Part shown: in pieces, positions 1 through 38,372 of the stretch
Numbering within the stretch: position 1 is the stretch's first letter
Layout: each line of letters opens with the position of its first letter
Source: Amphiura filiformis
Lineage: Eukaryota > Echinodermata > Ophiuroidea > Amphilepidida > Amphiuridae
NCBI RefSeq assembly: GCF_039555335.1
Contig: NC_092647.1
Coordinates: 13,623,594-13,687,593, forward strand
Direction: 5' to 3'
Length of the DNA: 64,000 nt
The notes under the pieces: model-generated
What the model was told of the DNA's origin: nothing
What the model saw: only the letters and a program-made list of their open reading frames with translations
The model's database searches: none
Translations under genes and position numbers: made by a program

Positions 1-2391
1 GGTAAAACAACATATCACATACACTTTGCACGGTAAAACAACATATCACATACACTTTGCACGATAAAACAGCATATCGCGTGCACTTTACACGGTAAAC
101 AACATATCACATGCACTTTGAACGGTAAAACAGCAAATCACATGCACTTTGCACGGTAAAACAGCATATCGCGTGCACTTTGCACGGTAAACAACATATC
201 ACATACACTTTGCACGGTAAAACAACATATCACATACACTTTGCACGGTAAAACAACATATCACATACACTTTGCACGATAAAACAGCATATCGCGTGCA
301 CTTTACACGGTAAACAACATATCACATGCACTTTGAACGGTAAAACAGCAAATCACATGCACTTTAAACGGTAAAACAGCTTATCGCATACACTTTGAAC
401 GGTAAAACAGCAAATCACATACACTTTGCACGGTAAAACAGCATATCGCGTGCACTTTGCACGGTAAACAACATATCACATGCACTTTGCACGGTAAAAC
501 AACATATCACATACACTTTGCACGGTAAAACAGCATATCGCGTGCACTTAGCACGGAAACAACATATCACATGCACTTTGCACGGTAAAACAATATATCA
601 CATGCACTGTGCACGGTAAAACAACATATCACATACATTTTGCACGGTAAAACAGCATATCGCGTGCACTTAGCACGGTAAACAACATATCACATGCACT
701 TTGCACGGTAAAACAACATATCACATACACTTTGCAAGGTAAAACAGCAAATCACATGCACTTTGCACGGTAAAACAGCAAATCACATGCATTTTGAACT
801 GTAAAACAGCAAATCACATACAGTCTGAACGGTAAAACAGCAAATCACATGCACTTTGCATGGTAAAACAACATATCACATACACTTTACACGGTAAAAC
901 AGCATATCGCGTGCACTTAGCACGGTAAACAACATATCACATGCACTTTACACGGTAAAACAGCAAATCACATGCACTTTGCACGGTAAAACAGCAAATC
1001 ATATGCACTTTGAACGGTAAAACAGCAAATCACATACACTCTGAACGGTAAAACAGCAAATCACATGCACTTTGAACGGTAAAACAGCAAATCACATGCA
1101 CTTTGAACGGTAAAACAGCAAATCACATGCACTTTGAACGGTAAAACAGCAAATCACATGTACTTTGAACGGTAAACAACATATCACATACACTTTGTAC
1201 GGTAAAACAGCAAATCACATGTACTTTGAACGGTAAACAACATATCACATACACTTTGCACGATAAAACAGCATATCGCGTGCACTTTGCACGGTAAACA
1301 ACATATCACATGTACTTTGAACGGTAAAACAGCAAATCACATGTACATTGCACGGTAAAACAGCATATCGCGTGCACTTTGCACGGTAAACAACATATCA
1401 CATGTACTTTGAACGGTAAAACAGCAAATCACATGCACTTTGCACGGTAAAACAGCATATCACATGCACTTTGCACGGTAAAACAACATATCACATACAC
1501 TTTGCACGGTAAAGCAGCAAATCACATGCACTTTGAACGGTAAAACAGCATATCGCGTGCACTTTGCACGGTAAACAACATATCACATGTACTTTGAACG
1601 GTAAAACAGCAAATCACATGCACTTTGCACGGTAAAACAACATATCACATGCACTTTGTACGGTAAAACAACATATCACATACACTTTGCACGATAAAAC
1701 AGCATATCGCGTGCACTTTGCACGGTAAACAACATATCACATGTACTTTGAACGGTAAAACAGCAAATCACATGCACTTTGCACGGTAAAACAACATATC
1801 ACATGCACTTTGTACGGTAAAACAACATATCACACGCACTTTGTACGGTAAAACAACATATCACATACACTTTGCACGATAAAACAGCATATCGCGTGCA
1901 CTTAGCACGGTAAACAACATATCACATGTACTTTGAACGGTAAAACAACATATCACATACACTTTGCACGATAAAACAGCATATCGCGTGCACTTTGCAC
2001 GGTAAACAACATATCACATGTACTTTGAACGGTAAAACAGCAAATCACATGCACTTTGCACGGTAAAACAACATATCACATGCACTTTGTACGGTAAAAC
2101 AACATATCACACGCACTTTGTACGGTAAAACAACATATCACATACACTTTGCACGATAAAACAGCATATCGCGTGCACTTAGCACGGTAAACAACATATC
2201 ACATGTACTTTGAACGGTAAAACAACATATCACATACACTTTGCACGATAAAACAGCATATCGCGTGCACTTTGCACGGTAAACAACATATCACATGTAC
2301 TTTGAACGGTAAAACAGCAAATCACATGCACTTTGAACAACATATCACATGCACTTTGTACGGTAAAACAACATATCACATGCACTTTGTA
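1..2391. repeat. 31-bp satellite array, left part
   Basis: About 77 head-to-tail copies of a 31-bp monomer, with a common 30-bp variant that has lost one base. The core reads GGTAAAACAGCAAATCACAT followed by a GCACTTTG segment. Sub-types differ at the middle (CAAATCACAT, CATATCACAT, CATATCGCGT) and alternate in short higher-order blocks. No open frame of note. The array stops at 2391, where a transposon begins, and resumes at 11252 in the same orientation and phase. Confidence 0.97.
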
Positions 2392-2745
2392 CACTCTCAG
2401 AACATTGGATAAAAAATGAATGGGCAGAAAACAGTTGGTTAAAAAATGCCCAACAATGGTTAAGATTCTTGAAGTTGGGCAAAATACAGTTTAATACATG
2501 GTTGGTCAAACCTGTCAATATGGTATTTACACAATGTTGGTCAAAGGTTAACCAACCTTGGTAAAAAACATCCTTTTCCCGCCAATAAAGTTGGGCAAAG
2601 TATGGTTTTGCCCAACCATGGTCACATGGTGTTCCTTTGCGAACTGTGATTGGTCATTGTGTTGGGCAAAAATGCATTTCAGAAAACAAGATGGCCGATA
2701 TGAGTGGCTTGCTGCAAAGCGGTGGATCAGGGTCTTCAAGATCTG

Positions 2746-2990
2746 TTGGAGACATTTGAAGGTATGAAATTATATTATAAAGTATATCATTTCATCGGGT
2801 ATAACACTTAGTTTAAGTGTGTGCGAGAGGCCGAACTGGTAGCAAGCCTACGATGCTTTACGGACAACTGGTACCACGTCCGATAAAGCATCGTTGTCTT
2901 GCTCACAGTCTGGCCTCGCACACACTTAAACTAAGTGTTATACCCGATAAAATGTTTATAATATAATTTCCTGCCTTCAAATGTCTCCAA
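2746..2990. repeat. Long imperfect inverted repeat (hairpin)
   Basis: The segment from TTGGAGACATTTGAAGG (2746) onward is the inverse of the segment ending at 2990. Pairing continues through GGGTATAACACTTAG and GTGTGCGAG, and even the core (ACGATGCTTTA...) pairs, so nearly the whole 245 bp folds on itself. It lies between the outer transposon's left end and the Helitron leader. It may be a small foldback element or an end structure. Confidence 0.8.
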
Positions 2991-3054
2991 TTGGTTAAAA
3001 TATGAACAATGAAATGAACTTCCCATTCATAGTGTTTAAACTTCTTACTTGACT

Positions 3055-3232
3055 GTGTAGTGGGTAAAGGTCACGGGAATGAATCTGTCTCTTGGGTTGG
3101 CAGAAAGTGCATTGGCAAAACAAAAATATGTGTAAAATATGTGTAAGGCAGTGGTGTAGTGGGTAAAGGTCACGGGAATGAATCTGTCTCTTGGGTTGGC
3201 AGAAAGTGCATTGGCAAAACAAAAATATGTGT
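3055..3232 (+). repeat. 99-bp tandem duplication
   Basis: Two nearly identical copies with an offset of 99 bp (starts at 3055 and 3154), each containing GTGGGTAAAGGTCACGGGAA and TTGGGTTGGCAGAAAGTGC. No coding potential seen. Confidence 0.9.
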
Positions 3233-3467
3233 TACTTCTTAGTCCAAGCAAGAGTATTTGGTCCAAGCTCCTCATTTGACAAGCATGCAAATATTTTCAC
3301 TATAACACATGACTTCTCACATTAGTGAATACTGCTTTGATAACCATAAAAGAGTGCTCAGATAATACATAATATTGGGATCACATCTACTTTGATGCAT
3401 CTACTTTAATTACACCAAGAGCAAGAGTTCCTGAGCGTTAACTAGAAGGTGTGATAACTAACAAGGT

Positions 3468-4215
3468 AAGAGATATCAAACATGATCTATTTAGGTTTGT
3501 TTGTCTGTGACTGCTGATGTGAGGCCGTAGTAGGAAGTTCGTTAAGTCATCTGACCCCGCCCCCCCGGGGGGGTCGTCTCTCTTACTCCCCATAGGTTGT
3601 GCATGCTTAATCACACATTATTATTATTTACTAAGTAGTCCTACGTGTATGGGGTGGGGTGGGTGGGTGTTAGATAAAAGTAGTCCTATGGGGGGACGTT
3701 TTTTATACTTTGTTGTACGTAGTCCTACAGGGGGCACATTTTCCTTATTATTGTTTACTGAGTAGTCCTACGTGTGTGGGGTGGGTGTGTGGGTAAAGAG
3801 ATATCAAACATGATCTATTTAGGTTTGTTTGTCTGTGACGGCTGATGTGAGGCCGTAGTAGGAAGTTTATGTTCGTTAAGTCATCTGACCCCGCCACCCC
3901 CGGGGGGGGTCGTCTCTCTTACTCCCCATAGGTTGTGCATGCTTAATCACACATTATTATTATTTACTAAGTAGTCCTACGTGTATGGGGTGAAGTGGGT
4001 GGGTGTTAGATAAAAGTAGTCCTATGGGGGGACGTTTTTTATACTTTGTTGCACGTAGTCCTAGAGGGGGCCCATTTTCCTTATTATTGTTTAATGAGTA
4101 GTCCTACGTGTGTGGGGTGGGTGTGTGGGTGTTAGATGAAAGTAGGCCTACGGGGGACTTTTTATACTTTGTTGCATTTAGTCCTACAGGGGGGCCCATT
4201 TTCTTATTTACCTCT
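3468..4215 (+). repeat. 328-bp tandem repeat in the Helitron leader region
   Basis: Two and a part copies with a 328-bp offset (AAGAGATATC at 3468 and 3796). Each contains a run of C then G, repeated GTAGTCCTACG motifs and G-rich tracts. The segment TTTAGGTTTGTTTGTCTGTG...GAGGCCGTAGTAGG plus TTCGTTAAGTCATC is shared with the minisatellite at 25090-25975 downstream of the Hox gene, so part of this leader belongs to a dispersed family. Confidence 0.85.
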
Positions 4216-4321
4216 TTTCTCGGAGACTAGGGTCACATTATTATAATTTCAGTTTCAATTTAGTTCATCTTATTCGACATTTCAAAACATTTTTTTTGCA
4301 CCAAAAATATTTATGATATTA

Positions 4322-4363
4322 TTTTTTTTTTTTTTTTTTTTTTAAATATATTTCTTTGCATAG
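4322..4363 (+). promoter_or_regulatory. Polypyrimidine tract and likely 3' splice site before the Helitron coding exon
   Basis: A run of 22 T (4322-4343) is followed by TTTCTTTGCATAG at 4351-4363, a good 3' splice-site shape. The reading frame of the Helitron N-terminus is open from here, but its first in-frame ATG is only at 4534, within the repeats. This suggests that an upstream first exon, not identified, supplies the start. Confidence 0.45.
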
Positions 4364-5898
4364 AGCCATGGATAAAATGTCCAACAGTCAAACAAACAGC
4401 TGCTAAAAAAGGGGAATACCGTAAAACGTTGACACCAGCTCAGAATGAAGCCATTAAACAGAAGGATGCTGCAGCAAAGCGTGTATCCTGGGCAGCTCAA
4501 ACACCAGAACAGCATGACGTAGCAAAACAGAAAATGGCAGCTGCAGCACGTGCATCCCGGGCGGCCCAAACACAAGAACAGCATGACGCAGCAAAACGGA
4601 AAAAGACAGCCGCAGCACATGCATCCCGGGCGGCTCAAACACCAGAACAGCATGACGCAACAAAACAGAAGGGTGCAGCAGCAAAACGTGCATCCCGGGC
4701 GGCTCAAACAGCAGAACAGCATGACGCAGCAAAACGGAAAAAGGCAGCCGCAGCACATGCATCCCGGGCGGCTCAAACACCAGAACAGCATGACGCAGCA
4801 AAACAGAAGGGTGCAGCAGCAAAACGTGCATCCCGGGCGGCTCAAACAGCAGAACAGCATGACGCAGCAAAACGGAAAAAGGCAGCCGCAGCACATGCAT
4901 CCCGGGCGGCTCAAACACCAGAACAGCATGACGCAGCAAAACAGAAGGGTGCAGCAGCAAAACGTGCATCCCGGGCGGCTCAAACACCAGAACAGCATGA
5001 CGCAGCAAAACGGAAAAAGGCAGCCGCAGCACATGCATCCCGGGCGGCTCAAACACCAGAACAGCATGACGCAGCAAAACAGAATGGTGCAGCAGCAAAA
5101 CGTGCATCCCGGGCGGCTCAAACAGCAGAACAGCATGACGCAGCAAAACGGAAAAAGGCAGCCGCAGCACATGCATCCCGGGCGGCTAAAACACCAGAAC
5201 AGCATGACACAGCAAAACAGAAGGGTGCAGCAGCAAAACGTGCATCCCGGGCGGCTCAAACAGCAGAACAGCGTGAAGCAGTAAAGCAGAAGGATGCCAC
5301 ATACCATCGGAACAAAACCAAAGCACAAAAGCAGAAACATTGTGCTCAGGTCAACAGGAACACTTTCGATGAGCAGCATGTTGTTCCACTCAATGTTGGA
5401 TCAACAACACTATGCTCATCATGCAAAGCAGTCATGTTTTCAGGGGAAACTCATAAAGGTCGCCTAGGAATAAATGCCACTTTCTCCTTATGTTGTTCCT
5501 ATGGAGATATTTCCTTACCACCAATCAAGCCTCCACCAGAACCATTAGCAGATCTCTTTATCAAGACTGATTCGAATGCCAGAGATTTCAAGCAACACAT
5601 CCGAAAGTACAATTCTGCTTTGGCACTTTCTTCAATTGGTGTTGATCTTGGAAGCACTTTCCAATTCAGGAATTCTGGACCATGGGTTTACAAGATTAAT
5701 GGTCAGATGTACCATGCAGCAGGCCCTATCATGCCTAACAGTGGTACACCTCCAGCATTCAGTCAATTGTATGTGTACGACACAGAACATGAATTAGACA
5801 ATCGACATGCGAGGAATAAGGATATGAACCGAGATACCCTCACACTTCTCCAGGACCTCATGCATACCTACAATCCATTTGTGCAGAAATATGTGCAG
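4364..5898 (+). CDS. Helitron Rep/helicase, N-terminal exon with expanded 23-aa repeats
   Basis: This exon encodes the N-terminal part of a Helitron transposase. Positions 4480-5290 encode about twelve copies of a 23-residue Ala/Lys/Gln-rich repeat (ASRAAQTPEQHDAAK plus a variable tail ending AAAKR or AAAAH). The two tail types alternate, making a 138-bp dimer. Shorter versions of this Ala/Gln/Arg repeat are known at Helitron N-termini. After the repeats comes the typical Helitron N-terminal region: a CSSCKAVMFSGE zinc-binding-like motif, FSLCCSYGDISLPPIKPPP, then IRKYNSALALSSIG and GQMYHAAGPIMPNSG. The frame is open up to a splice donor (CAG/GTAATA) at 5898, phase 0. The true start is unknown because no upstream in-frame ATG is visible. 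The Cys-rich frame on the opposite strand is only the antisense of the repeat. Confidence 0.88.
4480..5290 (+). repeat. 69/138-bp in-frame coding minisatellite
   Basis: Units of 69 bp (23 codons) alternate between two subtypes, so the homogeneous unit is 138 bp. Nucleotide identity between dimers is very high, implying recent expansion within the coding frame. Each unit contains the palindrome-like GCATCCCGGGCGGC. Confidence 0.9.
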
Positions 5899-6349
5899 GT
5901 AATATTACATATTATGTATTTTCTATTTACATATTATGACTACCTACCTTAAAGGAGCATTGTCCAATCTTTTCATATTCTGTTTTCTATATAGCTGACA
6001 TTGAGGCCTACCATTCAAACAATATATATATATGTTTCCAAAGTTTGAGTTGTATTGCTCCAGCAATAGGATATTACATAGACTTCCAGTGTGGTTACCA
6101 CAATTCAGCACGTTTTTGTTAACACCATGCATCTAAAGGAAACATCCCGGGCACCTGCCTGGGCATTAAATTTTACTAGGTAATGAGAAAAATATTTCTT
6201 CTCATACCAAAATCTCAGTTTCGATGAAGATAAATGGTGGGATGAGGCAGTCGGTCGGGTCACACCCTTTTCATATAGATCTATGTACTTTTCATTTCTT
6301 CTTATTTTAGCATCTCTATAACATTTACTTTCCAATACATTAACCACAG

Positions 6350-7264
6350 GCAGCACATATCATACAGCAGCAACCTACTACAAATGTCTGCTTGGTTCTC
6401 AAAGGTACTGGCACACCAGACCCACGAAGATATAATCTCCCAACCGGCAATGACATTGCAATCGTCATCCCACAAGTCCAGCAAATGCAGCCAGGACATC
6501 ACAGAGATGTAGTCCTGTACAAGACAGCAACAGACCATCCAAATGGCTTGACTACAGTGCGCATACATGAATTGCATCCAATGTATGATCCTACTGCTTA
6601 TCCTTTACTCTTCATACATGGTATGTATTATGTTTCACAAGGACATTACAACACCCTTCAGAACTGTTGAGTTTTATCAAAATCCTAACATGCTCTACCT
6701 CAATTTAGCAATGAGTTTCATCCCAATGCCACAATAATTTTTCATGATTTCCTTTTCTTCCAGGAGACAAAGGCTATGATATAGACACCTTTAAAAGACA
6801 GTCATCTACGGGACAAAAGAAGCTAACAACACGGAAGTACTACAGGTAATTTCCCTTTCATAGTGCACCATTGCAGCCATAGTTGTTTCAAGAAACACAT
6901 ACTCAGTCACTACTTTTATATTTATTATAATCACAAAAATTACCTAATGTGAATATAACCAGTAGTCTTATCCACTATAGATATTCTCACATTTTGCAGA
7001 TATCGCTTTATGGAGCATGACGGCGAATTAAATATTTTGCACCAGGGTGGACGTCTATTTCAGCAATATCTAGCTGACATGTGGTGTAAAACTGAAAAAG
7101 AAACACTTTCTTTCCTACGGTACAACCAAAGCCAGCTCAGAGCAGAACTATACCAAGGTCTTGCAGATGCTGTACACAACAATAACCAACAACAGCTAGG
7201 TACACGAGTTATCCTTCCATCGACTTTCCATGGCTCACCTCGCCAAATGCATGAGCTCTACCAG
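6350..7264 (+). CDS. Helitron Rep/helicase, exons 2-4 (Helitron-like N domain)
   Basis: Three exons join in frame with the first exon. Exon 2 (6350-6620) follows an acceptor CCACAG and ends at CATG/GTATGT, phase 1. Exon 3 (6764-6845) follows CTTCCAG and ends ACAG/GTAATT, phase 2. Exon 4 (7000-7264) follows TTTGCAG and ends CCAG/GTAATA, phase 0. The spliced product contains RRYNLPTGNDIAIVIP, the LHPMYDPTAYPLLF block, and after the exon 2/3 join an HGDKGYDI block. It then continues YYRYRFM and LHQGGRLFQQYLADMW, the conserved region of the Helitron-like N domain just before the Rep nuclease. Intron phases agree across all junctions, so the model is strong. The introns are AT-rich and 143-451 bp long. 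Confidence 0.87.
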
Positions 7265-7622
7265 GTAATATTGACTTCCATAATGTTTCACACTTATAAT
7301 CTAATCAACAAATAGGATGTCATAATAAAACTAACAATAAATGACACATAACAAAATATATTTCAACTAGAATTTCGCGACTTTCGAAGCAAAGCATCAG
7401 CCTCAATGCTTCCACCTTAGCATGAGTCATTTACCGAATTGGCATATTTTGCAATCAATGAACATCTGATGCGATTTGAAGACCGCCAGTTGCCACCCCT
7501 TCCCAAGTCACAACTTTCCAGTTCCGAGGAACATACTCAAAAGCGGCGGATGTACATGTTTTATAAAACTATATTACACAATTGTCACCTGCTTACATTT
7601 TTTCCAACACTTTATTCTGCAG

Positions 7623-8371
7623 GATGCTATGGCCTTAGTTCGATGGTTTGGAAAACCGGAGTTGTTTATTACATTCACATGCAACCCCAGATGGACTGAA
7701 ATAGTGGAGAAGCTCAAACCAGGCCAAACAGCAACAGACAGACAAGACATAGTCAACCGAGTCTTCCACCTGAAACTAAAACAGTTCTTCAAAGATCTTT
7801 TTACTAATGACGTGCTCGGAAACATCAAAGCCTACTGCTGGACCCTAGAAGAGCAAAAGCGATCGCTGAAACATATTCACCTCCTAGCCATACTTCAACA
7901 ACCATTAACTCCTGAATGGGTAGAAAGCGTTGTATGGGCATTCATTCCAGATCCCGGCACTATGCCCAAATTACACAAAATAGTCACCCAGTCTATGCTA
8001 CATGGTCCGTGTGGAACATTCAACCCAAACTCTCCATGCATGATAAATGGACAATGTAAAGCCAAATACCCCAAAGATTTCTGCAGCACTACAACCCTAT
8101 CAGAAGATGGATTTGCACTATATGCAAGACCAAATGATGGCACATTCCATGACAAAAATGGTTTCCGCTTTGACAATCGCTGGGTAGTTCCATATAACCC
8201 TTGGTTACTCCTGAAATACAATGCGCACATCAACACTGAGGTCTGTGGTAGTGTTAAAAACGTGAAGTATCTCTACAAATACATCACTAAGGGTGCTGAC
8301 ATGGCATCTGTGGGCATTGAAGAGACAGAACAACAGAATACAGATGAAATCACCAACTACGTTTCATCACG
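7623..8371 (+). CDS. Helitron Rep (HUH nuclease) exon
   Basis: The exon begins after TTATTCTGCAG (7612-7622), in phase with the previous donor, and reads DAMALVRWFGKPELFITFTC, a hallmark Helitron sequence. The HUH metal-binding motif is present as HIH within QKRSLKHIHLLAIL. The paired catalytic tyrosines lie in KYLYKYITKG near the end. Cys-containing stretches (GPCGTFNPNSPCMINGQCKAKYPK) match the family. It is the replication-initiator nuclease that nicks DNA in rolling-circle-like transposition. The donor is at CACG/GTACGT, phase 2. No stop or frameshift within this exon. A different frame reading through the upstream intron is not expected to be used. Confidence 0.92.
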
Positions 8372-8532
8372 GTACGTTGTTTCATTACCTCTTCCTTCTT
8401 CATATTAGCGCCTGCTTCCAATCAATAATTTATCACTTCTGCTCATCATTGCTAAACCACACAACAATGCATAATGCAGTACCAAACACCTTTCAATTAT
8501 TCCTCTTATCCTTCTCTATTGTATCAATACAG

Positions 8533-10761
8533 GTGGATTACAGCATCAACTGCAACATGGTCTATGTTTGAGTTCCCCACACATGGCAGACACCCACCAA
8601 TTGTACGTCTGGCAGTGCATGAAGAAAACCAGCAAACAGTCATCTTCAAAGAAGGCGAAGAAGACATTGCCCTGGATAGGAATACAAACACCACCCTTAC
8701 AGCCTGGATGAAGTTCAATGAAGATCATCCAGAAGCAAGACAACATACATACGATCAATTCCCTGTACACTATCGTTGGGATGCGGCAAATAAAAGGTGG
8801 CTCCTCGCAAAACATCCAACTACTGCATTGCTAGAGTCTACTCAACTAATCCTGCACAGGGAGAGCGCCACTACTTACGAATGCTTTTACATCACATACC
8901 AGGAGCTACGTGCTACAATGACCTCAAGACAGTACATGGTACTACATACCCTTCGTATAAACAAACTGCCATTGCAATGGGTCTCCTTGATGATGATGCT
9001 GAATGGGAACGATGTCTGAATGAAAGCGTCCTCCAAGATATGCCATGCAAAATTCGCCGCTTATTTGCAATAATTCTGGTATACTGTGCACCAGCCAATC
9101 CTGCACATTTGTGGAATACTTTCAACGAGCACATGAGTGATGACCTCGCACGCCCTCATCTTACTCCTTCACAAATTACAAATCAGGTACTATTGTCACT
9201 GGATACATTGTTAAAAGGCATGAACAGTTCCCTGCAAGACTTCCCCGACATTCCCCTCCCGGACTACACTCAGCGTGCCCAACTTCAGCTGCCAATAATT
9301 CAACAAGAATTATACAATACAACTGTGCAAGGAGATTTTGTAACCCAACATTTTCCACAACTCAACGAGCAACAACAAAGTATTTTCCAAACAGTCATGT
9401 CTGCTGTTGCAGGAACATCAGAGCAGAAGATAGTCATGATTAATGCACCCGGTGGATATGGAAAAACCTTCTTGCTGGCTACAATCTTAGCCGCTGTCAG
9501 AGCACAGGGCCAAATCGCATTAGCCGTGGCGCCAACAGGATTAGCAGCTGAAAACTTGGAGGGGGGTCGAACAGCGCACAGTCGGTTCAAAATCCCGATC
9601 CCAATTACTGACACGTCTATGTGTCGTATTCCAGCACAAAGTCACCTCGCAGCTCTAATTCGCAGGACTAAAGTCATCGTTTGGGATGAAATAATGGCTA
9701 CTCATCGCCATGCTGTGGAATGCGTTGATCGTACTATGCAAGACTTGCGCAACAGTGAACAACCCTTTGGTGGATGTATTGCACTTTTTGGAGGAGACAC
9801 ACGTCAAATCCTACCAGTTGTTCGCCATGGAAGTGAGGCAGCCATTATGGATAGCTCCATCAAACGGAGCCCATTGTGGGCACATTGCACTCAACTACCA
9901 TTAACAATCAACATGCGTGTAAACTCAGATGAAGTGGAATTCTCCAATTTCCTCCTTCAAATAGGAAATGGGCAACATGACACAGTCGATCCCACCAATC
10001 CACAGATCATGGAAATACCGGCTGAATTCATTGAACCAAACCTCGCATCACTAATTAACAAGATCTTTCCTAATCTTCAGGATGGCTACCAAGATCCATA
10101 TTTTATGGCACACCGCTCCATTCTCACTCCACTAAATGAACATATGGACAAAATCAATACTTCCTGCGTCCAATCCTTTCCAGGAACACCTCACACATAC
10201 TTAAGTGCTGACAAAGTACAGGAAGACAATGGCAATCTTGCAATTCCACTAGAATACTTGAATTCCTTAACTCCTTCTGGAATGCCTCCACACCAGCTAA
10301 TACTCAAACTCAACATGGTTGTTATGCTATTACGCAACCTCCAAGCTGGACCATCAGAAGGCTTACGTAATGGCACTAGACTCCTCATCAAGTCACTTGG
10401 AAACCATATGATTGAAGCAGAAATTCTCACTGGAACTAGCACAGGCACCACTGTCTTTCTTCCCAGAATTCCATTCCACCTACGTGACTCGGACTTCCCT
10501 TTCACCATGATCCGTAAACAGTTCCCCATTCGTCCCTGCTTCAGCATGACCATCAACAAAGCCCAGGGCCAAACCTTGGATAAAGTTGGCATTTACCTCC
10601 CAAATCCAGTATTTACACATGGACAACTGTATGTGGCATTTAGCAGAGTGCGCACAAAACATGCACTTGCTGTTTGCATCGATCACCAGCAGCTCACTCA
10701 AATGGCAAGCGTAAACAACAATCATTGCACCTCAAATATCGTCTTCCATTCCATCCTGTAA
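8533..10761 (+). pseudogene. Helitron last exon: Rep C-terminus and PIF1-like helicase, one frameshift
   Basis: After an acceptor AATACAG the frame runs RWITASTATWSMFEFPTHGR, typical of the Rep-helicase linker, to NKRW at about 8800. There the conserved sequence jumps one frame to PRKTSNYCIARVYS and then stays open for about 650 codons to TAA at 10759-10761. The helicase has Walker A (GGYGKT, about 9450), the Walker B-like VWDEI (about 9681), GGDTRQILPV, INMRV, HRSILTPLNEHMDKIN and the C-terminal INKAQGQTL with YVAFSRVR. It belongs to superfamily 1B and unwinds the transposing strand. There is no C-terminal endonuclease, so this is a canonical Helitron and not a Helentron. The single-base frameshift would separate Rep from helicase unless it is a sequencing error. 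Confidence 0.9.
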
Positions 10762-10997
10762 TCAAGGTAAACTTTTATATTAATCTCCCCATGCCATATG
10801 TGTTATATCAAACTTACATTCATGGTATTTATAGGTTAATACTTTAATCTCGCTACATGAATAACATATTTATGTTGTAATTCTTAACTTACATCTTTAA
10901 CTCATGACCAGGAAACATTTTGGAACATTTTGCAGGGGTCGTGTCAAAGGTCAACTGGGGTCCACCTCCCCCCTACTTAATTTGCTATTAATTAATT
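10762..10997. other. Helitron 3' untranslated/subterminal region
   Basis: AT-rich, no open frame, between the helicase stop and the terminal hairpin. It includes a short element GTGTCAAAGGTCAACTGGGG. No clear AATAAA was seen. Confidence 0.5.
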
Positions 10998-11034
10998 AGT
11001 CTATCAGTAGACTATCACCGCGATGTGGCTCTAG
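10998..11034 (+). other. Helitron 3' terminal hairpins and CTAG end
   Basis: AGTCTA-TCAG-TAGACT (10998-11013) forms a perfect 6-bp stem. A second small hairpin CCGC-GAT-GTGG (11018-11028, one G-T pair) sits two bases before CTAG (11031-11034). Helitrons end in a hairpin near a CTRR tetranucleotide, so both are plausible termination signals. The first is farther from the end than usual. Confidence 0.6.
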
Positions 11035-11251
11035 TTGGTTATATTTTGCCCAACATGCTTTGCCCAACTGGTTGGTTACCGTAATGTTAACCAGTAGTTG
11101 GTCAATGTTTTTAACCAACCTGTGGTTATATTGTTAACCAACCCAAGTTGGTTAACAATATAACCAACTGTTGGGCTGTTCACCTGTAAATACATGGTTG
11201 GTTAAAATTTTAACCAAGTTGGTTAAAATTTTAACCAACGTTCTGAGAGTG

Positions 11252-11866
11252 TACGGTAAAACAGCAAATCACATGCACTTTGTACGGTAAAACAGCAAAT
11301 CACATGCACTTTGAACGGTAAAACAGCAAATCACATGCACTTTGAACGGTAAAGCAGCAAATCACATGCACTTTGCACGGTAAAACAGCATATCGCGTGC
11401 ACTTTACACGGTAAAACAGCATATCACATGCACTTTGAAAGGTAAAACAGCAAATCACATGCACTTTGAACGGTAAAGCAGCAAATCACATGCACTTTAC
11501 ACGGTAAAACAGCATATCGCGTGCACTTTGCACGATTAACAACATATCACATGCACTTTGCACGGTAAAACAGCAAATCACATGCACTTTGCACGGTAAA
11601 ACAGCAAATCACATGCACTTTGAACGGTAAAGCAGCAAATCACATGCACTTTACACGGTAAAACAGCATATCACATGCACTTTGAAAGGTAAAACAGCAA
11701 ATCACATACACTTTACACGGTAAAACAGCATATCGCGTGCACTTTGCACGATTAACAACATATCACATGCACTTTGCACGGTAAAACAGCAAATCACATG
11801 CATGCACGTTGACCGGATGAGCAAATCACAGGCACTTTGAACGGTAAAACAACATATCACATGCAG
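11252..11866. repeat. 31-bp satellite array, right part
   Basis: Same 31-bp monomer as at 1-2391, about 19 copies, resuming with TACGGTAAAACAGC directly at the transposon's right end. The last copies decay (a GATGAGCAAATCACAGGC variant near 11815) and the array fades at about 11866. Confidence 0.95.
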
Positions 11867-13217
11867 TATTATCCATTACATCCATAGTATATTGTAGTAT
11901 ATATCCAAAACTGGCCAAATGTCACCACTTTCGTTCAACGCAAAGATAAGTTAATCCCATATCAAGCATTATAGATATATATTCCACGTCAGCGCAGCAA
12001 ATATGCATTATACTGGATCCAAAACTAAGAAACATCTTCTTGCTACAACAACAAACGCATCACTATCCTTGTAAATGAACACAACCTCTAAATATACTCC
12101 CTTAAAACCATGAAATATGCCATAAGAACACCATTACACTTTAAAGTCTCTCAATAAAACAGGTTTAGTTCTGCTATTAGGTGAACTAATGATACCTTGT
12201 AATTGTAATGGGAGAGGCGACAGTACCAATTGGGACGATTTGTACACCGGTTTAACAACACACAATGATTCCATTCCGGTGTTTTTACGAGCTAAAGTAC
12301 ACTATTTAGGCAGATATATAGAATCGTGTCTTGACCACATAGAAATAAGTTAAGAAAGATTATGGTCATTTGCTTTCTCAAATAAAACATATTAACTTTG
12401 GTAGTATCATGTATAGTATGTTTGATAAAGCCCATAACAAGAGCTTACGACCATTACGGTATACGCAAATCATCTTTTAGACTCGACTTACACGGCATTG
12501 CAGGCATAGATATTGCCGGGTAGATATTGCCAAAGTGTCGTCAATAAGCTTCGTTCTTGTACATGTATAGGCGCAACATTAATATAAATATTCAACAACA
12601 TAGTTTAATAGGATTTTTTTTTCATTTTAAGCAGTAATAACGAGGTAAAGTGAAAGACACTCCACTGCTAACATGACACAAAACTGTACAGCTTATCAGG
12701 CTACCATATCCAATCACCAAACCAAGTTGATCGGTTATTGTGTTTAAGCTGCAGAGTGGATTAATGGAATTTAGGCAAAATGTAGGCAAAATATACAAAT
12801 AAGCTCATTAATATTCATAAATATGCAAATAACATGACACAAAACTATACAGCACATCAGGCCACCATATCCAATCACCAAAACAAGTTTGAAGTTGAAC
12901 GGTTATTGCGTTTAAGCTGCGTTTAAGACCCACATATAGGTAATCTGAGGGCCAAAAATTGTATTGTTATGATTGACAGACACAATTTCAATCAATGACA
13001 AAATTAATCTTTGTGATCGAGCACAAAACAAACGTATTATATATCAATTTTGAATTTAGCCTGAATTCGTAAATATGGCCCTCTCACCCTTTTTTGGTTC
13101 AAAGCTGTTTTTACAATTAACTATTAATCAAACGTTCGTGCTATTTAAACGTAAAACGGCCATTCCATCTTTCACAAAATGTGTTATTTGTTACGTTAGC
13201 CCAAACACATCATTATG
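11867..13217. other. Non-coding AT-rich DNA with one direct repeat
   Basis: No convincing coding frame. A direct repeat of about 85-95 bp (12671-12752 and 12830-12925) shares AACATGACACAAAACT, CCATATCCAATCACCAAA and GTTTAAGCTGC, probably two copies of a dispersed element. The rest looks unique. Confidence 0.6.
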
Positions 13218-14536: not shown

Positions 14537-15586
14537 TAATTCTAATATCATGGGTGATAGGAATCTTATTGGTGCTAGTTGGCACCCTCATTCCGAGATA
14601 TCCAAGGTCAAAGTTTACACAGGGGTCAAAATCTACGACTTATCAGTCTGGAGTTATTGGCGAAACGGTCAAAGGTCAACATCGGCTCTACACAGGTCAA
14701 GACAGAAAATTTCCTCCGATTTTGAATTTTAATATGGTCTCAAATTGTTTGTCTTGTTATAACAATCAAAAAAGAATAGTTTGCACTACTTAGTATATAT
14801 GACATTTATTTACCTACAGGTAACACATAGCGACAGAACATTTTTAATTTTGACCCGAGATATAGGCATATCTCCAAATGCCCACGGATACCCACTGGGC
14901 ATGGCACCCGTCAAATTCTTTGTTAACTCACCTGAAACTATTACTTAAAGCAAAAAAAAAAAATGATAGTCATGCCCAAATTTACACTTAAGGGTAGACG
15001 CGGTATTGTTGGTCGAAGCAGACAAAATATCGATTTTCATTATCTAAATCAATATATTATTGAAAAATAGCACTTTCATGTTTTGCACAAGTTTATTCCA
15101 CAAATCTTACACTTTGAAAACTTGCTTGTTTTATTGTTGTTAATGAGTTATGTACGTTTTACAAAAGTGTTGTTGTTTCAGCCCTCTTTACAACATAACT
15201 CAAGAACCACAGGACATACAAAAGCATATCGGTAATATCTGAATTCGTCTATCTACACACTCGCTATGAAATGATCCATGCAATTTTTGCCAAAGCTTAC
15301 TACCATTCGCAAGATGCTGTGAACTACCAAATCGCAACAGTTTAAAATAGTTGCTAACCATCTACTTGACTAAATTGATCAGAGACATGAAAGACAAGAC
15401 GAGATCAGATCGCGACAGTTTGTTTACAAAATATAGTTGCTCTTTTACTGGATGCATTTAAGTAACGATATACCACCAGCACCACCACTGATGAGACGAC
15501 ACTGCAACTTATATTAGATGTTCGTTAGACGATATCAATTATAAATCAGGACACCTACACATCATTAGGGCGATATACCTACAACA
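14537..15586. other. Upstream region of the Hox gene
   Basis: AT-rich, no supported gene. 14590-14760 has AAGGTCAAAG and GGTCAAAGGTCAAC motifs typical of dispersed repeats in this window. The last 350 bp before the Hox ATG look unique and presumably contain the promoter and 5' UTR. TATAAA at 15540-15545 is 41 bp before the ATG, which would leave an unusually short leader, so it is only a weak TATA candidate. Confidence 0.35.
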
Positions 15587-16187
15587 ATGAATTTTCTGGA
15601 TTTAGCCTTCCAACATGTCCATAATGCCGACCATGGTCATGGGCCAAATTCGGCAGTGGTTAGCAAAAATGATAAGGTTCAAGATTTGAGTCTTGTTAAA
15701 GAAGAAGAATTGGATTATGCTACACGAGAATCATCATCAGACTATATTTACGGGAACCAAAGCAACTATTCAACTTGCGGCTTACTACCAGTTGCAGACG
15801 ATACAAAATTACATGATAATGATTCAGACAATGTAAACAGACAACAAAATTGTCGCATTGGATCTCCCGCGGAATATCTAGATCTGGACACTACCACAAG
15901 CTCTCGTTTTACCCAAATTTGTGCAATAAGTCATGTTGTACCGCTTCAGCATAGTCAAGGAGATATCTCTTCAACGACTCCTGTTTCGATCGATTCTCCT
16001 CATATTCATGATACTAAAAGTTACCAGGCTAGTCTCAAAGATCATCAAGAAGATGAAGAAGAAATGGCAGATGGTGATATTCACAATTTGAAAGTCAAAG
16101 ACTGCGATGGCGAAGTAACCTCAACGACCTGCCTGACCAATGGGTCCCGAGTTGTATACCCGTGGATGAAAGTATGCCCTAGTCCAA
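15587..16187 (+). CDS. Hox gene exon 1, with YPWM hexapeptide
   Basis: First coding exon of a central-class Hox transcription factor. ATG at 15587 has A at -3 and opens a 200-codon frame plus one base up to a donor CCAA/GTAAGA at 16187/16188. The encoded N-terminus is Asp/Glu/Ser-rich (SLVKEEELDYATRESSSDY, then HQEDEEEMADGD) and poorly conserved, as in most Hox proteins. It lacks the SSYF-type start seen in many Hox proteins. The hexapeptide YPWMK is at residues 191-195 and is the contact for PBC-class cofactors such as Exd/Pbx. The donor phase (1) matches the acceptor of the homeobox exon, giving SPS-KTASTKQ across the junction. The intron position just after the hexapeptide is typical of Hox genes. 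I do not assign a paralogue number. Confidence 0.9.
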
Positions 16188-16334
16188 GTAAGATATCATA
16201 AGTCATGTAAATAGGTAATATAATAGGGTCCACAACTTATAAGTTTCCCCTAATACTTTTTAAAATAAGTCTAAAATATACGAAATGTATTAATGTAAAA
16301 AGTTATGTATTATATTCCTTATTTGTTTTACCCA

Positions 16335-23647: not shown

Positions 23648-23689
23648 ATATAATAATGTGTTTAATTGTATTTTTAACAGAACTTAAAA

Positions 23690-23712
23690 GGATCACGAAA
23701 TACTCCTTTAAC
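23690..23712. mobile_element. End fragment of the TTAA MITE family
   Basis: GGATCACGAAATACTCCT followed by TTAA matches the right end of the 17289-17655 element. The matching left end was not located. Confidence 0.5.
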
Positions 23713-23756
23713 TACTTCATCATTAATTTTATCTTTTCTTCCTTTTCTTGATATAG

Positions 23757-24031
23757 GTAAAACAGCATCGACGAAACAAAAACGTGGACGTCAGACGTAC
23801 TCTCGTCACCAGACGCTTGAGTTAGAAAAGGAGTTTCATTTCAACCGTTACCTGACACGCCGCCGCAGAGTCGAGATTGCCCAATCGCTGGGACTCACCG
23901 AGCGACAAATTAAAATTTGGTTTCAAAATCGCCGAATGAAATACAAGAAAGTTGAGCAGGAGACAAACGTTTCACATCCATATCTACGAAATAAACTGCC
24001 ATCTATGTCAAACTTTTTAATATCAGACTAA
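23757..24031 (+). CDS. Hox gene exon 2, homeodomain
   Basis: The exon follows a TTTTCTTGATATAG acceptor and continues the phase-1 frame of exon 1 to TAA at 24029-24031, giving a protein of 291 aa. The homeodomain spans about residues 208-267: [19 protein letters not shown], then [19 protein letters not shown], then [15 protein letters not shown]50 and N51 are present, so TAAT-type sites are expected. It is closest to Antp/Hox6-8 proteins, but residue 56 is Tyr where Antp-like proteins have Trp, and 59-60 are VE. A short 24-residue tail (ending SMSNFLISD) follows. It is a nuclear factor patterning the body axis. The linker between YPWM and homeodomain is only 13 residues, which also fits a central-class gene. 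Confidence 0.96.
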
Positions 24032-24077: not shown

Positions 24078-24083
24078 ATTAAA
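24078..24083 (+). terminator. Candidate poly(A) signal of the Hox gene
   Basis: ATTAAA 47 bp after the stop codon; AATAAA next appears at 24766. The ATTAAA overlaps the TTAA end of a repeat, so the real cleavage site is uncertain. Confidence 0.25.
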
Positions 24084-24360
24084 GGTGGGTGACCTGATTG
24101 ACAACCTCATCCCCTACTTTATCCCCATCAAAATGCAGATTTTGGTATCAAGTGAAAGCTCATATTTTTCTCATTAACATATTGAAATTAGGCGTTCCCA
24201 ATCGGTATCTCGACTGGTATATACTACGCGACTAATTCGACAGTTTTTGGATGATACGGTACCTTCGGAAATACACCGATTTGGAACTTTTGAATATGTT
24301 AATGAGAAAAATAGTGTCCTTCCTTTTGATATCTTTAAACATGATCTTGATGCTAATCAT
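24080..24360. mobile_element. Diverged TTAA-family element in the Hox 3' flank
   Basis: Starts TTAA then AGGTGGGTGACC and continues ACAACCTCATCCCCTAC, comparable with the CCTCATCCCCCAC block of the element at 17289. CTCATTAACATATT (24166) is inverted as GAATATGTTAATGAG (24312). The right end is not clear. Confidence 0.5.
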
Positions 24361-25089: not shown

Positions 25090-25975
25090 TATTCTGTAGA
25101 TTTAGGTTTTGTCTGTGACTGCTAATGTGAGGCCGTCGTAGGTCGTACGGGGCTCAAACTCGGTGGGTGGGTGTAGCTCTGTCCTGGCAAGAAGAAGTTT
25201 ATGTTCGTTAAGTCATCCGACCCCGGGCCCCCCCCAGGGGTCATTTGAGGTCAAATGACTAAAAACTGTCATAGGGGCATGAAACTAGGTCGTACGGGAC
25301 TCAAACTCGGTGGGTGGGTGACGTTCTGTCCTGGCAAGAAGATGTTTATGTTCGTTAAGTCATCCGCCCCCGGGGCCCCCTCCCAGGGGTCATTTGAGTT
25401 CAAATGACTACAAACTGTCATATGGGCATGAAACTAGGTCGTACGGGACTCAAACTCGGTGGGTGGGTGTAGTTCTGTCCTGGCAAGAAGATGTTTATGT
25501 TCGTTAAGTCGTCCGACCCCGGGCTCCCTCCCAGGGGTCATTTGAGGTCAAATGACTAAAACTGTCATATGGGCATGAAACTAGGTCCTACAGGGGCTCA
25601 AACTCGGTGGGTGGGTGTAGTTCTGTCCTGGCAAGAAGATGTCTATGTTCGTTAAGTCATCCGACCACGGGGTCCCCTCCCAGGGGTCATCTAAGGTCAA
25701 ATTACTAAAAAGTGTCGTATGGGCATGAAACTTGGTAGGTACAGTCAACATTTAAAGCAGCATTTTTTGAAGGTCATTTTGGGGTCATCCAAGGTCACCA
25801 CGGGTCATCTGAGGTCAAATTAGTAAAAGCTCATATATGGGCATGAAACTTGGTAGGTATGCCTACAGTCAACATTTAGAGTTATACGTTTAGGTCATTT
25901 TGGGGTCATCCAATGTCACCCTGGGGTCATCTGAGGTCAAATTAGTAAAAATTGTCATATGGGCATGTCACCATC
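25090..25975 (+). repeat. 148-bp GC-rich minisatellite
   Basis: Four main copies at about 148-bp spacing (CTCAAACTCGGTGGGTGGGT near 25150, 25299, 25448 and 25599). Each has CCTGGCAAGAAG, GTTCGTTAAGTC, a C-rich/G-rich palindromic patch and AGGGGTCATTTGAGGTCAAA. Shorter, more diverged copies follow to 25975. The opening segment (TGTCTGTGACTGC...TGTGAGGCCGT) is shared with 3468-4215 in the Helitron leader. Confidence 0.88.
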
Positions 25976-32099: not shown

Positions 32100-33990
32100 C
32101 CTTCCCTTTTAAAGGGAATTTTTATTTATTTTTTTGAATTTTGACCAAATTCACTAAAAATAGTTGAAATTTGGGCAAAGATCGGGCTTTTTTATGAATT
32201 TTTTGAACATTCAGCATTTTTGACTATTTTGGTGCAAATTTCACAAAATTGGTCGAAATTCAAAAAATAAATAAACGGCTCCTAGATATTCTTATTTAGT
32301 TTTTAAAAATTAATAAAATGATTTTTTTTTGCCCAAGGATTTTTTTGTTACGAATAACGAAAAAGAAATGGGCTAAAAAAACATTTTTGGGGGATTTGGG
32401 GCCAAAAATGAGCATTTTGGCCCAAATTTGACCTCGCAGATGAACATATCAAGTCTTTTCCATCATGCTAAATATCTATACTTTTATATACTTTAGACCA
32501 ACAATTTAGCAGTAATGAGGCCCGAAAGTTTCCATAATTCCAGGGTTCAGACCAACCTTAAAACAATAAAAACCGGAAGGAACCGGCGGTCAACCGTCGG
32601 TCGAGTTTTGATTTCATACCAAACATTTTTAACCCCTTACAATCCTTTAGGCTTTATTGATTACTGAGGCCTTCCCAGCAAACAACAAATATTTTTAAAA
32701 CGTTACAAGCGTGTTATAGACGCGTTTTGAATGTGGTTAAAACGTTTTAATAACATTTAAATGTCGGGTTATATATTAAGGGATCTAGAATGAGCGTTTA
32801 TTGCGTTTCGACAGTATTTTTTGTGGGACATGAGAGCACCTCAGACCTATCGAATTGCATTCTGAATACGAAGCATGCCTTTCTGATCTCAAATACAAAT
32901 TTTATGACAAATTTATGATATATTTCAAATTTTTGATATATAACAGTCCTCGAAGTAAATTATATAAATCTAATGATATATTCTTAAAGTGTATGTAGCT
33001 GGGAAGAAAAGCCGACGGTCAATTGAAAATTTTGACCTTTCATATTGAAGATATGGATTTTTTTCCCAAAAAGACCTTTTTTTTGTTGTGTGTTTTGGGA
33101 AAAAATCCATATCTCCAATACGAAAGGTCAAAATTTTCAATTGATCGTCGGCTTTTCATCTCACCTACATACACTTTAAGTATAAATCATCAGATTTATA
33201 AAATTTACTTCGAGTACTGTTAAATAACAAATATATCAATTTTTAATGATTTGCCACAAAATGTGTATTAAATTGCGAATTTCAAAAAATCAAAATTATT
33301 TGATATCAGAAGGACATTCTTCGTATTCAGAATGCAATTCGATATGGCTGATGTGCTCTAATGTCCCAAAATAAATACTGTCCAAACGTTCATACCCCAG
33401 CCCTTAAGGTCATGAAAACTTTTCATATGAAAAAAACACTACAACATGTTTAAAATGTTTTCAAAATGTTATTGCTAAATATTTTTTGCAAACTTTTTCG
33501 CAAATATTTTGTCAACACTTAATAACATTTTGTCAGAATGTTTTGCATAAAGTTTTCTGAATGTTATTAAACATAAAACCCGACAGGTTTTGCGTAAAAT
33601 GTTGTGTGTGTGCTTGTTTAAAAGGTTGGTCTGAACCCTGGAATTATGGAAACTTTCGGGCCTCATAACTGCTAAATTGTTGGTCTAAAGTATATAAAAG
33701 TATACATATTTAGAATGGCAAAGACTTGATAAGTTCATCTGTGAGGTCAAATTTGGGCCAAAATGCTCATTTTGGCCCAAAATCCCAAAATACTGGGGTT
33801 TTTTTATTAATTTTTAAAAACTAGATAAAATATCTAGGAGCCATTTTGTCATTTTTTTAAATTTCGACCAACTTCGAGAATTTTGCACCAAAAATGGTCA
33901 AAAAATGCTGAATTTTCAAGAAAATCATAAAAAAGCCCGATATTTGCCCAAATTTCAAATATTTTTGGTGAAGTTAGTTTTTAAAAATTA
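32100..33990. mobile_element. Nested foldback element with 0.4-kb arms
   Basis: The left arm (about 32115-32560) is the inverse of the right arm (about 33614-33990). Shared segments include TTTGGTGCAAATTTC-like sequence, GGCTCCTAGATATT, TGGGCCAAAATGAGCATTTT and GGCCTCATAACTGC. The arms enclose a second MITE family (32664-32775 and 33408-33610, AAAACGTTTTAATAACATTT), which is itself split by the foldback at 32776-33407. This gives three layers. The 32-bp satellite begins at the outer edge of the right arm. Confidence 0.82.
32776..33407. mobile_element. Near-palindromic TTAA element, copy A
   Basis: Starts TTAA then GGGATCTAGAATGAGCG and ends TACCCCAGCCC then TTAA. The two halves (about 310 bp each) are inverse: GACAGTATTTTTTGTGGGAC versus its inverse, GAATTGCATTCTGAATACGA versus its inverse, and a core ATATGGATTTTTTTCCCAAA. 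The insertion split a MITE reading CGGGTTATATA / AAGGTCATG. Related uninterrupted sequence at 59578-59600 supports a TTAA target duplication. Open frames in it are antisense pairs of the palindrome. Confidence 0.9.
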
Positions 33991-34004: not shown

Positions 34005-36716
34005 AGTATCTTCTAAAGAAAGCGCCCTGTGTAAATGATATCTTCAGAAGATAGCACCCTGTGTAAATGATATCTTCAGAAGATAGCACCCTGTGTAAAT
34101 GTTATCTTCAGAAGATAGCACCCTGTGTAAATAATATCTTCAGAAGATAGCACCCTGTGTAAATGTTATCTTCAGAAGAAAGCACCCTGTTTAAAAGCTA
34201 TCTTCAGAAGATAACAGCATGTGTGAATGCTATCTTCAGAAGATAGTACCCTGTGTAAATGTTATCTTCAGAAGATAACACCCTGTGTAAATGTTATCTT
34301 CAAAAGATAACACCCTGTGCAAATGTTATCTTCAGAAGATAGTACCCTGTGTAAATGTTATCTTCAGAAGATAGCACCCTGTGTAAAGATAACACCCTGT
34401 GTAAATGTTATCTTCAGAAGATAGCACCCTGTGCAAATGTTATCTTCAGAAGATAGTACCCTGTGTAAATGTTATCTTCAGAAGATATCACCCTGTGTAA
34501 ATGATATCTTCAGAAGATAGCACCCTGTGTAGATGATATCTTCAGATGATAGCACCCTGTGTAAATAATATCTTCAGAAGATAGCACCCTGTGTAAATGT
34601 TATCTTCAGAAGAAAGCACCCTGTTTAAAAGCTATCTTCAGAAGATAGCACCCTGTGTAAAAGCTATCTTCAGAAGATAGCACCCTGTGTAAATGTTATC
34701 TTCAGAAGAAAGCACCCTGTTTAAAAGCTATCTTCAGAAGATAACAGCATGTGTGAATGCTATCTTCAGAAGATAGTACCCTGTGTAAATGTTATCTTCA
34801 GAAGATAACACCCTGTGTAAATGTTATCTTCAAAAGATAACACCCTGTGCAAATGTTATCTTCAGAAGATAGTACCCTGTGTAAATGTTATCTTCAGAAG
34901 ATAGCACCCTGTGTAAAGATAACACCCTGTGTAAATGTTATCTTCAGAAGATAGCACCCTGTGCAAATGTTATCTTCAGAAGATAGTACCCTGTGTAAAT
35001 GTTATCTTCAGAAGATAGCACCCTGTGTAAATGTTATCTTCAGAAGATAGCACCTTGTGTAAATGTTATCTTCAGAAGATAGCACCTTGTGTAAATGTTA
35101 TCTTCAGAAGATAACACCCTGTGTAAATGTTATCTTCAGAAGATAGCACCTTGTGTAAATGTTATCTTCAGAAGATAACACCCTGTGTAAATGTTATCTT
35201 CAGAAGATAACACCCTGTGTAAATGTTATCTTCAGAAGATAACACCCTGTGTAAATGTTATCTTCAGAAGATAGCACCTTGTGTAAATGTTATCTTCAGA
35301 AGATAACACCCTGTGTAAATGTTATCTTCAGAAGATAGCACCCTGTGTAAATGTTATCTTCAGAAGAAAGCACCCTGTTTAAAAGCTATCTTCAGAAGAT
35401 AGCACCCTGTGTAAAAGCTATCTTCAGAAGATAGCACCCTGTGTAAATGCTATCTTCAGAAGATAGTACCCTGTGTAAATGTTATCTTCAGAAGATAGCA
35501 CCCTGTGTAAATGATATCTTCAGAAGATAGCACCCTGTGTAAATGATATCTTCAGATGATAGAACCCTGTGTAAATAATATCTTCAGAAGATAGCACCCT
35601 GTGTAAATGTTATCTTCAGAAGAAAGCACCCTGTGTAAAAGCTATCTTCAGAAGATAGCACCCTGTGTAAAAGCTATCTTCAGAAGATAGCACCCTGTGT
35701 AAATGCTATCTTCAGAAGATAGTACCCTGTGTAAATGTTATCTTCAGAAGATAGCACCCTGTGTAAATGTTATCTTCAGAAGATAGCACCTTGTGTAAAT
35801 GTTATCTTCAGAAGATAGCACCTTGTGTAAATGTTATCTTCAGAAGATAACACCCTGTGTAAATGTTATCTTCAGAAGATAGCACCTTGTGTAAATGTTA
35901 TCTTCAGAAGATAACACCCTGTGTAAATGTTATCTTCAGAAGATAACACCCTGTGTAAATGTTATCTTCAGAAGATAATACCCTGTGTAAATGTTATCTT
36001 CAGAAGATAACACCCTATGTAAATGTTATCTTCAGAAGATAATACCCTGTGTAAATGTTATCTTCAGAAGATAGTACCCTGTGTAAATGTTATCTTCAGA
36101 AGATAATACCCTGTGTAAATGTTATCTTCAGAAGATAACACCCTATGTAAATGTTATCTTCAGAAGATAATACCCTGTGTAAATGTTATCTTCAGAAGAT
36201 AGTACCCTGTGTAAATGTTATCTTCAGAAGATAATACCCTGTGTAAATGTTATCTTCAGAAGATAACACCCTATGTAAATGTTATCTTCAGAAGATAATA
36301 CCCTGTGTAAATGTTATCTTCAGAAGATAGTACCCTGTGTAAATGTTATCTTCAGAAGATAATACCCTGTGTAAATGTTATCTTCAGAAGATAACACCCT
36401 ATGTAAATGTTATCTTCAGAAGATAATACCCTGTGTAAATGTTATCTTCAGAAGATAGCACCTTGTGTAAATGTTATCTTCAGAAGATAGTACCCTGTGT
36501 AAATGTTATCTTCAGAAGATAACACCCTGTGTAAATGTTATCTTCAGAAGATAACACCCTGTGTAAATGTTATCTTCAGAAGATAACACCCTGTGTAAAT
36601 GTTATCTTCAGAAGATAACACCCTGTGTAAATGTTATCTTCAGAAGATAGCACCCTGTGTAAATGATATCTTCAGAAGATAGCACCCTGTGTAAATGCTA
36701 TCTTCAGAAGATAACA
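34005..36716 (+). repeat. 32-bp palindromic-core satellite, forward array
   Basis: About 84 copies of a 32-bp unit: TATCTTCAGAAGATA then GCACCCTGTGTAAATGT. The core TATCTTC-A-GAAGATA is a palindrome with one central base, in many copies extended to GCTATCTTC...GAAGATAGC. Higher-order structure is visible: a block of about 230 bp near 34200-34430 recurs at 34740-34970, and a four-monomer unit (128 bp, with the CCCTATGT variant) recurs four times between 35980 and 36420. Confidence 0.97.
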
Positions 36717-38051: not shown

Positions 38052-38372
38052 AATATGCTATCTTCTGCAGATAGCATTTACACAGGGTGCTATTTTCTGA
38101 AGGTATGACTTACACAGGGTGCTATCTACTGAAGATAGCATTTACATATGGTGCTATCTTCTGAAGATAACATTTACACAGTGTGCTATCTGCTGAAGGT
38201 AGGACTTACACAGGGTGCTATCTTCTGAAGATAACATTTACACAGGTGCTATCTTCTGGAGATTCTGGGGATATCATTTACACATGGTGCTATCTTCTGA
38301 AGATAACATTTACACAGTGTGCTATCTTCTGAAGGTAGGACTTACACAGGGTGCTATCTATATTGTAGATAG
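38052..38372 (-). repeat. 32-bp satellite, reverse orientation, first block
   Basis: Units read GCTATCTTCTGAAGATAGCA then TTTACACAGGGT, the inverse complement of the array at 34005-36716, about ten copies with variants (GAAGGTAGGACTTACAC). Confidence 0.93.

Follow-up and report, generated by a model that had tools for sequence, protein, structure and literature searches.

A Helraiser-like Helitron probably nested in a non-autonomous terminal-inverted-repeat element within a 31-bp tandem array of Amphiura filiformis

The window analysed here, a stretch of 64,000 nucleotides, comes from the ophiuroid Amphiura filiformis (assembly GCF_039555335.1, contig NC_092647.1, positions 13,623,594 to 13,687,593 of the forward strand); it has 36.7% G+C and contains no N. 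At its left end lies a tandem array of 31-bp monomers, split into two blocks by an insert of 8.86 kb. The insert is bounded by a pair of terminal inverted repeats (TIRs), its interior carries the Rep and helicase domains of a Helitron resembling Helraiser, and a Hox-like gene is found downstream. The original prediction, made from the letters of the window, was of a three-layer nest, ie a Helitron inside a TIR element inside the array. The TIRs at the array breakpoints, the Rep and helicase domains and the phase of 31 uphold that description. The features are collected in Table 1.

Table 1. The interrupted array, the outer TIR element and the Helitron. Positions are those of the window; a slash marks a junction and a dot a feature given without strand. 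TRF, Tandem Repeats Finder.
Feature	Position	Strand	Remarks
Left block of 31-bp tandem array	1..2391	+	Runs past the left edge of the window; TRF 1-2389, 77.9 copies, 85% matches
Left copy of likely TA target duplication (GTAC alternative)	2390..2391	.	TTTG-TA/CACTC...GAGTG/TA-CGG
Left TIR, CACTCTCAGAAC	2392..2403	+	Adjoins left array block
Left part of outer element	2404..3009	+	Subterminal motifs GTTGGTTA, GTTGGGCAAA, GTTGGTCAA; k-mers shared with 11035-11251; direct and inverted repeats
245-bp near-perfect inverted repeat (hairpin) within outer element	2746..2990	.	Self-match 83.6% over 256 aligned columns
Best-guess Helitron 5' terminus, A/TCTACTTTGATG	3386..3387	+	From candidate list; bracket 3010-4264
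Tandem repeats, two of 336 bp and a partial third copy	3468..4208	+	Between outer vocabulary and Helitron coding region
Putative Helitron exon 1	4264..5898	+	69-bp coding repeats, then region like Helraiser 103-281; donor GT at 5899
Putative Helitron exon 2	6350..6620	+	Like Helraiser 301-382; predicted splice sites
Putative Helitron exon 3	6764..6845	+	Predicted from splice consensus only
Putative Helitron exon 4	7000..7264	+	Like Helraiser 428-513; predicted splice sites
Rep HUH nuclease exon	7623..8371	+	Helitron_like_N 7.9e-34 (Pfam); Helraiser 508-764, 2e-72
Rep-Hel linker and PIF1-type helicase	8533..10758	+	PIF1 4.2e-63 (Pfam); Helraiser 854-1494, 4e-132
Helitron 3' hairpin, TAGTCTA-TCAG-TAGACTA	10997..11014	+	7-bp stem, 4-nt loop
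Proposed Helitron 3' terminus, CTAG	11031..11034	+	Followed by host T; single copy
Right part of outer element	11035..11239	+	Subterminal motifs including palindromes GTTGGTTAAAATTTTAACCAAC
Right TIR, GTTCTGAGAGTG	11240..11251	+	Reverse complement of CACTCTCAGAAC; adjoins right array block
Right copy of likely TA target duplication	11252..11253	.
Right block of 31-bp tandem array	11252..11866	+	TRF 11253-11865, 19.8 copies

The array, which the original prediction called a satellite, is a candidate for one; approximately 3 kb of it, all at this locus, falls within the window, its left edge lying outside. Monomer anchors number 78 in the left block and 20 in the right, and they are spaced by 31 in 59 of 77 and 16 of 19 intervals, respectively. 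When 2392-11253 (the element plus one TA) is excised, the anchors of the flanking monomers come to stand exactly 31 bp apart, which is the commonest spacing. Monomers bearing TA are present on both sides of the insert. The variant CACTTTGTACGG is found in 8 of the 75 recognised monomers, and the nearest complete monomers to the left and right of the insert (2352 and 11276) both have it. A clean cut of one array monomer is supported by these observations.

The arms of the TIRs are identical over 12 bp, with 3 bp more outward (GTA/TAC). Each of CACTCTCAGAAC and GTTCTGAGAGTG occurs at a single site in the window at up to one mismatch; at two mismatches there are one and two further sites, respectively. 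Because chance alone would produce approximately 68 inverted pairs of 12 bp, spaced 0.3-15 kb apart, in 64 kb of sequence, such a pair means little alone. The chance of one falling exactly at both array breakpoints, which are fixed and independently defined in this estimate, is about 7e-8, or about 7e-7 if nine placements are allowed. Counting 12-mer inverted pairs outside the masked arrays gave 1121 pairs, 74 with TA on both sides and 10 starting with CAC; two pairs have both properties, this element and the pair at 45458/58498. The count is dominated by long dispersed palindromes and for this reason was not used as a test. Given an element that starts at CAC, the target duplication is likely to be TA. 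A 4-bp duplication of the palindrome GTAC, leaving element ends ACTC...GAGT, accounts for the junctions just as well. The original prediction had placed the TIRs at these positions, with one monomer cut cleanly and TA or GTAC restored; its coordinates are exact, and both outer boundaries are supported. Exact-pattern scans of prokaryote and virus contig collections gave no match to the array monomer or to the outer end motif, a result that is uninformative on the host genome.

Within the TIRs, the motifs GTTGGTTA and GTTGGGCAAA are present in both orientations and GTTGGTCAA in one. This subterminal vocabulary is clear as far as 2997; the left part of the outer element may extend to about 3385, and the element without the Helitron would measure 1211 bp if the Helitron starts at 3386. 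The 245-bp inverted repeat is predicted to fold as DNA (2740-2998) with -97.9 kcal/mol (z = -23.9), and none of 200 shuffles was as stable. The original prediction does not mention this repeat. Inspection by eye showed no target duplication flanking it; it may represent a core of the non-autonomous element or an additional insertion, or may give rise to small RNA.

On the far side of the Helitron the flank beyond CTAG is TTGGTTAA-type sequence, and the change is abrupt. The 217 bp from 11035 to 11251 share 58, 40, 32 and 26 distinct 7-, 8-, 9- and 10-mers with 2392-3009, against maxima of 41, 22, 10 and 6 among 1250 other segments of 217 bp. The 217 bp upstream of CTAG are near background, with 22, 8, 4 and 1 shared k-mers compared to segment means of 18.7, 5.8, 1.7 and 0.45. 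Dense sharing begins at 11033, and there is none across 10953-11032. It had been claimed from the start that the Helitron ends at this CTAG and that the sequence beyond it has the subterminal vocabulary of the outer element. The shared 10-mers bear out the second claim, and the following T, the 7-bp stem upstream and the switch in vocabulary all agree with the first. This change of sequence type is stronger evidence for the 3' boundary than the hairpin.

The coding region of the Helitron was compared with solved structures in six pieces, and for all six the best-scoring structure was Helraiser (PDB 7lcc). The pieces are collinear with it and cover residues 103-281, 301-382, 428-513, 508-764, 759-850 and 854-1494. 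The Rep contains HIH within KHIHLLA (7869-7889) and two tyrosines within KYLYKYITKG (8265-8294), which we take to be the catalytic pair, and a Walker-type GGYGKT is present. GT...AG borders at the gaps between the Helraiser-like pieces point to five introns, at 5899-6349, 6621-6763, 6846-6999, 7265-7622 and 8372-8532. In the open frame of the first putative exon, a coding repeat of 69 bp (23 aa) occurs 12 times. The reading frame is broken once: the stretch corresponding to Helraiser 759-850 ends at 8800, and that corresponding to 854-1494 starts at 8806 in a different frame, which leaves the Rep-helicase fusion interrupted here. Barring a sequencing error at this point, full-length translation of the copy is improbable.

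In these respects the element is of the Helitron1 type represented by Helraiser/Helibat1. It has the two-tyrosine Rep with HUH motif, a PIF1-type helicase fused to the Rep (though with the frame broken near 8800), collinearity in six pieces between residues 103 and 1494 and, at the one copy, a 3' CTRR next to T with a hairpin upstream. The CTAG end next to T and the upstream hairpin are also given for Helraiser (PMC4778049). The predicted introns, the 23-aa repeats near the N-terminus and the broken frame are unlike Helraiser.

Three observations concern neighbouring repeats and possible relatives of the Helitron. Stretches of the 336-bp repeats, from 3468-3907, recur at 25100-25240 and inside the 149-bp tandem array next to it (to 25736), with 78-91% identity over 32-53 columns; the matches at 25100-25736 are maybe a relic of the Helitron family. 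A diverged dispersed repeat, 71-73% identical between copies, occurs at 6169-6274, in the putative first intron, and again at 24078-24189 (-), just past the homeobox open frame, and at 44442-44506 (+). The copy in the intron is possibly a fourth layer of the nest. No relative of the Rep was confirmed in the virus contig collection, where four stretches matched a pattern.

The 5' end of the Helitron is confined to 3010-4264, because clear outer vocabulary reaches 2997 and the open coding frame begins at 4264. Helitrons commonly begin with a TCTACT-like sequence, and on that ground the site at 3386, A/TCTACTTTGATGCATCTACTTT, is our favoured best guess; it would give a Helitron of 7649 bp. The 3' hairpin contains AGTAGA, to which the proposed start TCTACT is complementary in reverse, a match of 6 bp only that is not taken as evidence.

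Taken together, it is very probable that the 31-bp array harbours two independent DNA transposons, one nested in the other, with a Helraiser-like Helitron inside a non-autonomous TIR element. In the course we propose, the TIR element, about 1.2 kb long given a Helitron start at 3386, would have inserted by cut-and-paste into one array monomer, where staggered cutting at a TA would have duplicated that dinucleotide. An autonomous-type Helraiser-like Helitron, about 7.6 kb long with the same start, would have inserted between an A and a T of an outer-element copy. Its entry would have left no target duplication, the HUH nuclease carrying out a rolling-circle transfer that stopped at the CTAG marked by the hairpin.

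A number of findings count against the nested reading. At the 3' end, 82 of the 1312 CTRR sites on both strands of the window have a stem of at least 7 within 40 nt upstream, and the DNA fold of the hairpin scores z = -1.88, its stability being matched by 13 of 200 shuffles; the hairpin alone is consequently weak evidence. (Among CTAG sites of the + strand, 2 of 77 have such a stem, this one and 42977.) The hairpin ends 16 nt upstream of CTAG, whereas the corresponding palindrome of Helraiser lies 11 nt from the 3' end (PMC4778049). The 5' end is bracketed and no more, and there are 13 A/TC candidates inside the bracket. Some 7-mers of the right end recur beyond 3009, eg at 3091-3094 and 3190-3193. 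The first in-frame ATG of the Helitron frame, with none earlier, is at 4534, inside the coding repeats. When seven pieces were compared with the window by blastn (E 1e-3), no second copy of the outer pieces or of the Helitron 3' piece was found, and the array pieces matched only the array; short stretches upstream of the Helitron gene had matches at 25100-25686, and an intron stretch had them at two other places. Self-matches and array or coding-repeat hits had been filtered out in that search, ie hits of the array pieces starting below 2400 or at 11250-11900 and hits of the coding piece at 4264-5300. Finally, no transposase of the outer element was found in five open reading frames from 2348-3296 scanned against Pfam. 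Three of these gave no hit up to E 0.1, and the two in 2998-3296, whose ownership is uncertain, gave only hits under the curated cut-off (best E 0.0036).

The outer element is most likely of the CACTA/CMC type and non-autonomous, a candidate member likened to that group by structural description and not by sequence similarity to a named family. Its TIRs end in CAC...GTG, it has subterminal direct and inverted repeats, and TA fits the 2-3 bp duplication of CACTA/EnSpm elements, the GTAC palindrome leaving 4 bp possible. In PMC6004678 there are descriptions of 5'-CAC...GTG-3' ends with a 2-bp duplication for CACTA-type elements, including the tunicate ENS1_Cis, and for the non-autonomous CMC-NA elements of wasps and their viruses. 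Closely spaced subterminal direct and inverted repeats, as seen here, are described for CACTA elements in PMC8978399. The TIR here begins CACTC, and in this, as in the lack of a transposase in the frames scanned, it differs from CACTA/EnSpm elements. Tc1/mariner elements duplicate TA, and the TA at this locus would suit an element of that type, the frames scanned having given no transposase. A PHIS-type element would be suited too: TA duplication is recorded for the fungal PHISTA lineage, and also for ESTA, an EnSpm-like fungal lineage, in PMC12730594. Either origin would be compatible with nesting. The CAC...GTG termini and 2-bp duplication, together with the subterminal repeats, make up the CACTA/CMC pattern of the two sources first named, and an origin of the outer element outside CACTA/CMC is unlikely.

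The original prediction also drew a relative time order from the nest. What stands is that the array monomer was in place before the outer element inserted at this site, and that a copy of the outer element received the Helitron. As nesting fits entry of the Helitron before or after the outer element reached the array, the full three-step order is only partly warranted; taking it as proven was rejected, since nesting alone does not fix it. The Helitron may have entered the outer element elsewhere, the 8.86-kb composite then moving into the array via the outer TIRs. Intact outer ends and an array interrupted in phase are what either order gives, and no feature dating the two insertions relative to each other was noticed in the window, where no dating analysis was made. 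At about 1.2 kb the putative empty element is far shorter than the composite, and higher mobility is usual among short non-autonomous elements, so arrival as a composite seems fairly improbable. It is quite improbable that a complete Helitron came into the array, next to the Hox-like gene, as cargo of the outer TIR element; if true, a cut-and-paste element would have spread a rolling-circle element.

A single element, in which the TIRs are the Helitron's own termini, would make the insert an atypical Helitron or Helentron whose ends are inverted. The sole copy of the TIRs in the window does surround a Helitron. The Rep-Hel protein is Helraiser-like, however, and the account of Helraiser's ends in PMC4778049 gives TC/CTAG termini without inverted repeats, A/T target junctions and Helitrons without target duplications, from which the outer TIRs are predicted not to belong to the Helitron. 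In addition, 217 bp separate the CTAG/T end from the right end of the insert, and the vocabulary switches at precisely that CTAG. On the protein type and this internal end the single element was rejected as highly improbable. Tandem arrays are prone to misassembly, but an array-internal rearrangement or assembly chimera, with boundaries that are not transposition junctions, is scarcely credible given matching 12-bp inverted ends at both breakpoints, at the chance given above, and the exact 31-bp phase.

The remainder of the window includes the Hox-like gene and several further repeats. An open frame at 15569-16198 (+), with its first ATG at 15587, has a hexapeptide-like VYPWMKV near its end. 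An Antennapedia-like homeodomain, which marks the window as animal DNA, is encoded at 23678-24028 (+), its start approximately 7.6 kb downstream of that frame; the two are presumably exons of one gene. Upstream of the first ATG of the Hox-like frame, the end of the array lies at a distance of about 3.7 kb and that of the outer element at 4.3 kb. Tandem arrays of a 32-bp unit occur at 34007-36713 (+) and, in the opposite orientation, at 38056-38379 and 39725-41140 (-), with 83 units on the + and 38 on the - strand at up to 6 mismatches and a separation of about 1.3 kb; we take them to resemble a foldback-type element with tandem-repeat arms. A self-palindromic repeat of approximately 620-660 bp, like a miniature inverted-repeat transposable element, is present in four copies (32784-33403, 45321-45980, 58019-58636 and 62100-62736), the other three being 89-93% identical to the copy at 45321. 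A degenerate TTAGGG array at 43951-44112 (26 copies, 73% matches) is an interstitial telomere-like repeat. No Rfam match reached the gathering score, and a tRNA scan with the bacterial code found none.

It is nothing unusual for transposons to be nested or to lie in tandem arrays, and each layer here is a familiar kind of element; the locus is a case of ordinary nested transposons. Short tandem repeats are also physically tied to rolling-circle elements in the oyster genome, where Cg_HINE are non-autonomous Helentrons with an array as their core (PMC7492417); at the present locus the array is the host of the element. The general understanding of transposons is unchanged by this locus alone. 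The in-phase interruption is good single-locus evidence for insertion into a tandem array, and annotation is aided because the locus cleanly delimits one outer-element family and supplies the likely 3' end of a Helitron family. Intermediate states at the same site in relatives would allow the insertions near the Hox-like gene to be dated.

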